Source: Halobiforma lacisalsi AJ5
Lineage (GTDB): Archaea; Halobacteriota; Halobacteria; Halobacteriales; Natrialbaceae
Direction of reading: 5' to 3'
NCBI RefSeq assembly: GCF_000226975.2
Contig: NZ_CP019285.1
Span: forward strand, 4,030,001-4,094,000
DNA length: 64,000 bases
Position 1 is the first letter of the stretch; each line of letters begins with the position of its first letter. Shown here piece by piece: positions 50,053 to 52,351 of the stretch. The notes below the pieces were generated by a model. It worked only from the letters and a program-made list of their open reading frames with translations, did not search any database and was not told the DNA's origin. Position numbers and translations under genes: made by a program.

Positions 50053-50331
50053 CTAGATCTTCGACTCGGCGTCCTCGGCCAGCTCCTTCATCCGCTTGCC
50101 GATCCGGCCGGCACTCGAGAACTCGTCCTCGCTCATTCCCTTCGCGAGGGCGTTACCGAGGACGAACACGGCGTGTTTGTGTTCGCTCTTCGATTTGTGG
50201 ACGTGGGAGGGGTCGACGTCGAGCTGGTGGTACGGGTCGAACAGTTCCTCGTCGACGTCCTCCCGCTGGGAGAAGTACTCCATGATGACGACGAGTTCTT
50301 CGTGAAGCTCGAGAAGTTCGTCCTTGTGCAT
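50053..50331 (-). CDS. UPF0058 family protein
   Basis: Helical protein of 92 aa: HKDELLELHEELVVIMEYF, then DPSHVHKSKSEHKHAVFVLG and LAKGMSEDEF match UPF0058, an archaeal family of unknown function. GCTTAAGGG is centred 26-27 nt before the ATG, so it is leaderless. Distance to the coiled-coil gene is 37 nt on the same strand. Confidence 0.9.
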   Translation of the reverse strand: MHKDELLELHEELVVIMEYFSQREDVDEELFDPYHQLDVDPSHVHKSKSEHKHAVFVLGNALAKGMSEDEFSSAGRIGKRMKELAEDAESKI

Positions 50332-50623: not shown

Positions 50624-51781
50624 TCAGTCGTCCGCGACGGTCACGTCCCGGTTTCGCTGGCCGGCCGGGAACCACGCGAGTTCGTGGTCGGCGGTCACGC
50701 GAACGGCGACGCGCTCGTCGAGGTCGATCCGGTCGGAGTGGTTGTGCATGCACTCGATCGTTTCCCCGGAGTCGAGTTCGACGCGGTACAGCACCGTCGG
50801 GCCGAGATACCGGCGGTAGACGACGCGCCCGTTCGTCTCGCCGTCGTCGGCCGGGAACGCGGTCACGTCGTCGGGGCGGACGAGCAGGTCGATCTTGCTG
50901 CCGTCGTACTGGTGGGCGAGGCCGTTGACGTCGTCCCGGAGCACGCGACCGATTGCCGTCCGGACCTGATCGCCCTGTACCTCACCCGAGAGGAAACTCG
51001 CGTGTCCCAGAAAGCCCGCGACGAACCGCGACTTTGGCTGCTGGAAGACGCGCTCGGGCGTATCTACCTGTTCGATGTTCCCGTCGTTCATCACGGCAAC
51101 GCGGTCCGAGATGGAGAGGGCCTCCTCCTGGTCGTGCGTGACCGAGACGGCGGTGACGCCGGTTTCCTTGATGATCCGGCGGACCTCTTCGCGCATCTCG
51201 ACCCGGAGGTCGACATCGAGGTTCGAGAACGGTTCGTCGAGCAAGAGCATCTCCGGTTCGGGTGCCAGCGAACGGGCGAGCGCGATCCGCTGTTGCTGGC
51301 CGCCGGAGAGTTCGTCGGGGTAGTCCTCGTCGTGTTCCGAGAGCCCGACCAGTTCGAGCAGTTCGTCCACGCGGGCGTCCCGTTCCTCCTGGCTCCAGTC
51401 CTGCAGGCCGAATGCGATGTTCTCGCGCGCGGTGAGGTGGGGAAACAGCGCGAACTCCTGGAAGACGACGCCGACGCCCCGATCCTCCGGCGGGACGAAC
51501 CGGCCGTTGCCGGCGACCGAGTCGTGACGGAGGGTGATCCGGCCGGCGTTCGGTTTCTCGAGGCCGGCGATCAGCCGCAGCGTGGTCGTTTTACCGCAGC
51601 CTGACGGGCCGAGGAGGGTCAGAATTTCGCCGTCGTGGACGGACAGCGACAGCTCCGAGATAACCTCTTCGGCCCCGTACTGCTTGGCGACGTCCTCGAG
51701 TTCCAGCACGACGTCTCCCGTCGCTTCTGGGGTCGCCGTCGATTCGTCGGCGGCCGTCGTCAGTAGTTGCCCGTTCGCCAT
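50624..51781 (-). CDS. ABC transporter ATPase, iron(III)/FbpC-like
   Basis: Protein of 385 aa. Walker A LLGPSGCGKTT is near residue 60, signature LSGGQQQR and Walker B LLLDEPFSNLD follow, and the H-loop is VTHDQEEAL. The C-terminal region (PKSRFVAGFLGHASFLSGEV, then DLLVRPDDV) is the TOBE domain of FbpC-type ATPases, so ferric iron is the best guess, with other substrates such as thiamine, sulfate or polyamine possible. Partner permease and binding protein are not adjacent. A palindromic operator candidate lies in its promoter. Confidence 0.85.
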   Translation of the reverse strand: MANGQLLTTAADESTATPEATGDVVLELEDVAKQYGAEEVISELSLSVHDGEILTLLGPSGCGKTTTLRLIAGLEKPNAGRITLRHDSVAGNGRFVPPEDRGVGVVFQEFALFPHLTARENIAFGLQDWSQEERDARVDELLELVGLSEHDEDYPDELSGGQQQRIALARSLAPEPEMLLLDEPFSNLDVDLRVEMREEVRRIIKETGVTAVSVTHDQEEALSISDRVAVMNDGNIEQVDTPERVFQQPKSRFVAGFLGHASFLSGEVQGDQVRTAIGRVLRDDVNGLAHQYDGSKIDLLVRPDDVTAFPADDGETNGRVVYRRYLGPTVLYRVELDSGETIECMHNHSDRIDLDERVAVRVTADHELAWFPAGQRNRDVTVADD

Positions 51782-51813
51782 GGTCGACTCCGGCGTCTGC
51801 CGGCGTACATAGG

Positions 51814-51829
51814 TTTAGGGACGCCTAAA
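51814..51829 (-). promoter_or_regulatory. Palindromic operator candidate for the FbpC-like gene
   Basis: TTTAGGGACGCCTAAA, an inverted repeat of TTTAGG around four bases. On the minus strand a TATA-like CTATAAG (51833-51839) predicts transcription from about 51810, placing the palindrome between TATA box and start site where a repressor would block. The half-site resembles the TTAGG of DtxR/IdeR-type metal regulators. Confidence 0.5.
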
Positions 51830-51880
51830 ACACTTATAGTTGCCGGTCCGTTCCAGCCACCTGGGAACACGAACGAAGAC

Positions 51881-52351
51881 TCAGAGTTCGACGCCGCTGG
51901 GGATCAGGCTGTGCTGGCGGAGCAGGCTCCCCTCGTCGTCGTAGACGAGAAACGTCCGTTTGTCGTAAGTGACGTAGGGTTCCCCGTCGAGAGTGATCTC
52001 GACCTCGTACCGCCCGTCGTCGTCGTTGGCGGCCTCGCCATAGCCGCGGGCCGCGCGGATGAACTTCAGGACGTCGTCGGCCGCTTCGTTGAGTTCGAGG
52101 ATGAATTCGCCAGTGATCCGGTTCGTCACGCTCACGACGCCGCGGGCGTCGTCGCCGAGCGGGTCCTGAAGCCGCAGGGCGACGTCCGTCTCCCCGGCCT
52201 CGAGGACGTCGCCGTCGGTCCCCGTAAGGCGCTCGCGGAGCATCGTCGCCGGGCCGGTAAAGTCGATCGATACCGAGGGTTTGCAAGGCTCGTCGTCGGT
52301 GTCGACCCACTCGACGTTATCGACGTCTAGCGTGAAGTGCTCGCGCCTCAT
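51881..52351 (-). CDS. DUF5793-like hypothetical protein
   Basis: Protein of 156 aa, probably cytoplasmic. RREHFTLDVDNVEWVDTDDE starts it; SIDFTGPATMLRERLTG and EVEITLDGEPYVTYDKRTFL are conserved-looking beta strands. Believed to be a haloarchaeal family of unknown function. It is divergent from pilB, with 171 nt between them. Confidence 0.75.
   Translation of the reverse strand: MRREHFTLDVDNVEWVDTDDEPCKPSVSIDFTGPATMLRERLTGTDGDVLEAGETDVALRLQDPLGDDARGVVSVTNRITGEFILELNEAADDVLKFIRAARGYGEAANDDDGRYEVEITLDGEPYVTYDKRTFLVYDDEGSLLRQHSLIPSGVEL

Follow-up and report, generated by a model that had tools for sequence, protein, structure and literature searches.

A probable iron-dependent DtxR-family operator on a displaced fbpC-type ATPase gene in haloarchaea

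Directly upstream of a gene for an FbpC-type ABC transporter ATPase, the window studied here (a stretch of 64,000 nucleotides, G000:C1:4030001-4094000, of a 4.38-Mb haloarchaeal genome) carries the palindrome TTTAGG-N4-CCTAAA, which we interpret, with a probability of roughly 85%, as an iron-dependent operator of the DtxR family acting on the displaced fbpC gene of a ferric-iron transporter. Under plentiful iron, one metal-loaded dimer of a DtxR-family protein would occupy the 16-bp site downstream of the TATA box and block fbpC transcription. When iron is scarce the repressor would leave, and fbpC would be expressed at the same time as fbpA and fbpB, both preceded by the same operator; the three products would then form one ferric-iron ABC importer. 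In the simplest history, fbpC would have moved, early in the history of the Natrialbaceae, from an fbpABC operon to a place beside a DUF5793 gene, with its operator either kept or regained.

The putative operator and its enrichment

On the plus strand the site reads TTTAGGGACGCCTAAA, a perfect 6+6 palindrome with a spacer of four bases, and the order on the gene strand is CTATAAG, tgt, TTTAGGCGTCCCTAAA, 32 bases and the ATG at 51781 (Table 1), which confirms the placement between TATA box and ATPase start that had been given in a preliminary description of this DNA. Assuming the general rule for archaeal promoters, a TATA box centred near 51836 would set the transcription start near 51810, and a bound protein would therefore cover the gap between the TATA box and the start site.

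Table 1. Coordinates of the features discussed (positions without a contig or locus name refer to the window)
Feature	Position	Strand	Remarks
Palindromic operator TTTAGG-N4-CCTAAA	51814..51829	-	minus-strand reading TTTAGGCGTCCCTAAA
TATA-like box CTATAAG	51833..51839	-	3 bases upstream of the operator; conserved in the 42-row stack
fbpC-type ABC transporter ATPase gene, ABC_tran + TOBE_2, 385 aa	50624..51781	-	apart from fbpA and fbpB
DUF5793 gene	51881..52351	-	upstream neighbour, marker of the displaced location; Pfam PF19106
UPF0058 gene	50053..50331	-	usual downstream neighbour of displaced fbpC; Pfam PF01893
FAD/thioredoxin-reductase-like neighbours	L001:2798-4970; NZ_CP007056.1:406593-412432; NZ_CP081960.1:230794-232858; NC_015944.1:309874-312901		

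The motif is strongly enriched. In the genome as a whole, TTTAGGN4CCTAAA occurs 12 times exactly and the reversed pattern not once; if bases are treated as independent at 65% G+C, the expectation calculated by hand is about 0.04 exact copies per genome. Allowing at most one mismatch gives 17 motif copies versus 4 reversed ones, and the shorter core TTAGGN4CCTAA occurs 15 times versus 0, its outer T and A being kept in 13 and 14 of these 15 sites. Across the order, at least one exact copy is found in 187 of 195 genomes (156 of the 157 of good quality), and six of the eight genomes without one are less than 80% complete. Summed over the 195 genomes, the exact copies amount to 1478 forward (from a hand-transcribed table) versus 25 reversed (a hand count, in 21 genomes). 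A separate observation is that operators often come in tandem, 34-36 bases apart (e.g., L005:5067/5102, L001:4975/5009, NZ_CP039140.1:492573/492609 and several other genomes), an arrangement that suggests two dimers on separate sites.

The half-sites had been likened to DtxR/IdeR metal boxes, and the likeness proves to be close: the core is identical to the 14-bp consensus TTAGGNNNNCCTAA proposed in 2021 for IdeR of Saccharopolyspora erythraea, where one dimer can bind such a half box (excerpt of PMC8464063). The single-dimer site described there shares with ours the four-base spacer and the iron genes downstream; unlike it, the sites reported here nearly always keep the outer T and A and belong to an archaeal TATA promoter. 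The 19-bp two-dimer form, usual in bacterial IdeR targets according to the same excerpt, is absent from all 15 core sites of our genome, none of which has the third or fourth CCTAA repeat of the full box TTAGGTTAGSCTAACCTAA, the best agreeing at 3 of 5 positions. What is thereby excluded is the two-dimer form alone.

A signal of this kind is already known in haloarchaea, because a "ferR regulon signal" has been cited before the fhu iron-siderophore ABC genes of Haloferax volcanii (Leyn and Rodionov 2015, in an excerpt of PMC11349517). Like that signal, the motif lies before iron-siderophore ABC genes in the genomes examined, and we infer that the two are probably the same. Among the titles listed in literature searches, none dealt with the TTTAGG-N4-CCTAAA motif in haloarchaea, and we make no claim that the motif is unpublished. 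What the present analysis adds is that the signal stands before a displaced fbpC, that this gene can be paired with fbpA and fbpB, how the gene order may have changed, and that the core fits a one-dimer site exactly.

Genes behind the motif

The expectation that the palindrome would also precede other iron genes was borne out by a search of the genome. Sites lie before the genes of an FbpA-like binding protein and of an FbpB-like two-domain permease (one terminal mismatch), both at L006, before a FecCD permease gene (L003, with 5 bases between site and ORF) and before two Peripla_BP_2 binding-protein genes (L003 and L001); siderophore and iron-transport genes follow the motif on plasmids of other haloarchaea. 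Several iron-uptake genes, in the own genome and on five plasmids, are thus preceded by the motif in the manner of a DtxR/IdeR-type iron operator. Behind the L002 site stands a gene for the iron-sulfur cluster repair protein Ric, scoring above the NCBIfam cut-off. Other sites have no obvious iron gene behind them, namely those before a cupin gene (L009), a DUF5059/Copper-bind protein gene (L008), a DUF7551/7552 gene (L005, behind two sites 35 bases apart) and two sugar-transfer genes at L006, one of the reversibly-glycosylated-polypeptide (RGP) family and one for a family-2 glycosyltransferase; the sites at L004 and L007 have no clear target. FAD or thioredoxin-reductase-like genes repeatedly adjoin operator-bearing genes for solute-binding proteins (SBPs) or iron permeases (Table 1), and these neighbours are candidate ferric-siderophore reductases.

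On the five haloarchaeal plasmids there are 23 exact sites, and the reversed pattern does not occur. By our reading, 17 of the 23 lie directly before SBP genes, an iron ABC permease operon, an IucA/IucC gene or operon, or an ATPase orthologue (that of Natronorubrum bangense); the plasmids were retrieved with an SBP or the ATPase as query, and some sites beside such genes are therefore to be expected. The remaining six lie elsewhere (W01 417239, W02 325745 and 403384, W03 125968 and 273052, W05 467275). One site-bearing SBP of Haloferax mediterranei adjoins an 'HVO_A0556 family' gene and, going by the name of this neighbour, may be HVO_A0557, which in H. volcanii is up 7.0-fold in iron starvation (excerpt of PMC11349517). 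According to the same excerpt, iron starvation of H. volcanii raises one fhu permease 12.7-fold and five of 11 fhuD proteins more than 4-fold; among the siderophore proteins IucA is up 3.8-fold and IucC down 10.4-fold, and the fall of IucC counts against a simple iron-repression reading.

The link to sugar-transfer genes is a further aspect of these neighbourhoods. Within the operator-bearing iron cluster at L006:5021-16834 there are RGP, PMT_2/DUF7846, family-2 glycosyltransferase, epimerase and LPG_synthase_TM genes, the last of which we take to be equivalent to UPF0104, and a PMT-type gene comes after fbpC in the operon loci of relatives (L059-L096). GalE-family and UPF0104-family proteins of H. 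volcanii are up 12.7- and 11.6-fold in iron starvation (Table 1 of PMC11349517, in excerpt). The conserved rgp-fbpA-fbpB-fbpC-pmt arrangement, together with the operators before sugar-transfer genes, suggests that the cluster is more than an iron importer. Because of this order and these operators, we entertain the tentative idea, at somewhat less than even odds, that haloarchaea remodel their surface glycosylation along with ferric-iron uptake when iron is scarce, fbpC having left the cluster about three times and having its own operator-like site each time.

A probable ferric-iron ATPase gene apart from its likely partners

The window ATPase matches PF00005 and PF08402 above cut-off, and thus has the ABC_tran and TOBE combination of FbpC. 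It misses the NCBIfam equivalog of ferric ABC ATPases, NF008513 (284.1 bits, cut-off 496), which scores lower on it than the models of phosphonate and polyamine transport. These are its best NCBIfam models, PhnT2 for 2-aminoethylphosphonate (341.9 bits, cut-off 457.7) and PotA for polyamines (330.6, cut-off 482), and each of the 25 models listed, out of 186, stays below its cut-off. The nearest solved relative, i.e., the best PDB match, is 9j4r, 'Iron ABC transporter, ATP-binding protein', and the nearest named relative is that of Halobiforma haloterrestris, a natrialbacean haloarchaeon, with 98% identity. Given that the ferric-ATPase model is missed, the term 'FbpC-like' is based on gene order, on the shared operator and on relatives in the PDB; the preliminary description of the product as an iron importer ATPase stands on these three grounds and falls short at the NCBIfam ferric cut-off. 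The FbpA-like protein has 28 PDB matches, 25 of them named iron proteins and the other three YfuA, sfuA and a generic solute-binding protein; it scores weakly, below cut-off, on thiamine and phosphonate models. For the FbpB-like protein the best NCBIfam model is the phosphonate permease PhnU2, also below cut-off (143 of 593 bits). Among known systems, the nearest are the ferric-iron ABC importers FbpABC and FutABC. The likeness to these systems consists in an FbpA-like, a two-domain FbpB-like and a TOBE-bearing FbpC-like protein with iron proteins among their solved relatives, and the difference is that the genes of our genome are split over loci, each with its own operator.

The ATPase is indeed encoded away from its likely partners, as the same description had proposed. 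Among the 13 ATPases of the genome with the highest scores, 12 have a PF00528 permease within 2 kb, the sole exception being the window gene, which has none within 47 kb; conversely, no ATPase gene lies within 16 kb of the FbpB-like permease. Among 43 permease matches, only FbpB and a pst-like pair are without an ATPase within 3 kb (of 70 ATPase matches 65 entered this pairing, the omitted ones being two weak fragments and three matches on contig C2; of 44 permease matches 43 entered it, the omitted one scoring below cut-off). What fbpC has in common with its likely partners is the operator, not adjacency: the fbpA and fbpB operators lie at 1.567 and 1.574 Mb of the contig, and the distance between fbpC and fbpB is about 2.5 Mb by contig numbering or, should the contig be circular, 1.65 Mb in the opposite direction. 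The pst-like permeases (C1:3624400 and C1:3626095) were ruled out as partners of the ATPase. Their locus reads pstS-pstC-pstA-phoU, an assignment that is our own reading and not a family match, and has no motif at up to one mismatch; Pst ATPases are not known to have a TOBE domain. The interval from pstA to phoU at this locus (L128:2467-7166) contains no pstB ATPase gene.

In relatives the three genes are often found together. Of 510 relatives of the ATPase, the 80 best were compared; fbpC is third in an fbpA-fbpB-fbpC operon in 30, followed in all 30 by a PMT-type glycosyltransferase gene. A site precedes fbpA in 27 of the 30 operon loci (24 exact, three with one mismatch), the others being L068, L095 and L085, for which the upstream DNA is missing from the data. 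A DUF5793 gene lies upstream of fbpC at 42 of the 80 loci, and a UPF0058 gene, the usual neighbour on the downstream side, is present at 38 of 80. Counting the window, the DUF5793 context comprises 43 copies, of which 42 have an exact site of their own. The exception is L057 of Haloterrigena salina, a promoter without operator (L057:2930-3000), where the DUF5793 context is kept, and which constitutes a natural test of deregulation. Of the seven loci in neither context, L061 has an exact site, L075, L081, L086, L091 and L097 have TTTTGG...CCTAAA variants, and L092, the second copy found in the same MAG as L060, has no site. Overall, a site at up to one mismatch lies upstream of fbpC or its operon in 75 of 80 rows (79 loci and the window), those without being L057, L068, L092, L095 and L085; L056, cut at its start, was left out of the operator counts and of the tree described below. 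In a motif-anchored stack of 42 rows of the DUF5793 context, which takes in only rows with an exact site, all 12 half-site bases are kept and 22 spacer words occur; conservation averages 1.33 bits over the 16 bases ahead of the site, where the TATA region lies, versus 0.62 further upstream and 0.59 downstream.

On a tree of the 80 rows (quick method, SH-aLRT only, midpoint root), the three contexts need 4 changes, which fits about three departures from the operon if the change ran in the direction that we suppose. These apparent departures, about three in number, concern most Natrialbaceae examined, the Natronomonas group and one Haloferacaceae genome, and after each of them fbpC appears to stand behind its own operator-like site, the shared operator replacing the lost operon. 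An ATPase does lie beside fbpB in three FbpB loci of the window's family (L114, L116 and L117, in genomes G208, G216 and G071). G071 has a displaced-type ATPase copy (83% identical, judged without its neighbours) as well as an operon copy; G216 (67% complete) and G208 hold only the operon-type ATPase (68% and 58% identical), and displacement is for this reason common but not universal in the family, which limits the DISPLACEMENT story. All nine loci of the closest FbpB group (L098-L106, 71-100% identical) carry a site ahead of fbpB, each with the terminal mismatch noted at L006; among the other 21 FbpB loci, 14 have a site at up to one mismatch somewhere in the stretch and seven have none.

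Candidate regulators and competing explanations

DtxR-family regulators tied to iron homeostasis include Idr1 and Idr2 in Halobacterium and Idr, SirR and TroR in H. volcanii, and TroR is called the primary regulator in the title of a paper referenced in the same source (excerpt of PMC11349517). We liken the DtxR proteins of our genome to these by family and by the tie to iron homeostasis, not by orthology; for TroR and SirR, the excerpt reports protein levels without significant change in iron starvation. Two proteins of our genome match Fe_dep_repress strongly (78.9 and 64.4 bits); two further matches are borderline, at the cut-off, and six fall short of it. There is a three-domain DtxR protein (C1:3229076, 226 aa) with Fe_dep_repress, Fe_dep_repr_C and FeoA (DNA-binding, metal/dimerisation and FeoA domains), and a short one (C1:3502735, 142 aa) without FeoA. 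Aligned to IdeR 1fx7, the three-domain protein keeps H79, E83, H98, E105 and H106, which we take to be metal ligands of IdeR, along with the helix residues P39 and T40; a DtxR-family protein with metal-binding residues is thus encoded, with Asp instead of Met and Cys at two IdeR positions, M10 and C102. The promoter of its gene (L010, just before 1498) contains an imperfect TTTAGG...CTAAA inverted repeat, whose best fit to the motif has 3 mismatches, and autoregulation is possible. Among 19 genomes picked by motif number, this number showed no clear match to the presence of either regulator. Several motif-free genomes have only a distant three-domain protein (G101 39%, G018 49%, G001 and G042 54%, G133 58%), a pattern broken by G016 (68%) and G025 (61%), both incomplete. 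The preliminary proposal of an iron-dependent repressor on the ATPase gene gains support from the enrichment, the identity with the IdeR core, the iron-gene neighbourhoods and the encoded DtxR proteins, to which this role would fall.

Either of the two proteins might be the one that acts. That the short protein is the repressor, an explanation compatible with the main one, has a real if minority chance of being correct: short metal-dependent-regulator genes lie near motif-bearing SBP genes on plasmids of Haloferax mediterranei, Halobaculum and Halostagnicola, and the motif-free G001, G018 and G042 are without a separate relative of the short protein. The retention of IdeR positions by the three-domain protein (the only one aligned) speaks against it, as does the fact that several motif-free genomes have only distant three-domain versions, a pattern that G016 and G025 do not fit. 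A signal other than iron at the same kind of operator, be it manganese or another divalent metal, is improbable. The Asp residues at M10 and C102 would suit it, and MntR is the best NCBIfam model of both DtxR proteins, albeit below cut-off; however, the genes downstream of the motif include FecCD, IucA/IucC and the FbpA-like protein with its iron-protein relatives, and the genes that could be identified next to the sites of our genome and of the plasmids include no manganese transporter, in a scan that covered part of the genes and had two unclear targets in our genome.

It is very unlikely that the operator is as described and the transporter carries something else, such as phosphonate or polyamine, as the best models of the ATPase (PhnT2, PotA) and of FbpB (PhnU2) might suggest, since all three score below cut-off, whereas named iron proteins dominate among the solved relatives of the FbpA-like protein and the ATPase itself has an iron transporter ATPase as its best PDB match. 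The palindrome lies only 3 bases from the TATA box and its ends are AT-rich, as might be seen in a promoter element or a chance inverted repeat without a dedicated regulator. Such an origin has next to no probability and is, as chance or pure promoter element, ruled out by the controls and by half-site conservation: the reversed pattern, of equal base composition, is nearly absent, the 12 half-site bases are kept in 42 of 43 DUF5793-context rows as spacer and flanks drift, and the motif is found repeatedly before genes of related function.

An iron-dependent DtxR-family operator on the displaced fbpC would have several implications for the biology of haloarchaea. It would provide one order-wide, easily searched operator for haloarchaeal iron regulation, and through it an ATPase encoded alone can be matched to the genes of its likely partners. 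It would also represent a clear natural case of an operon that falls apart while co-regulation is kept. Finally, the one-dimer type of DtxR/IdeR site, which was put forward in 2021 for a bacterial IdeR, would here be seen throughout an archaeal genome.
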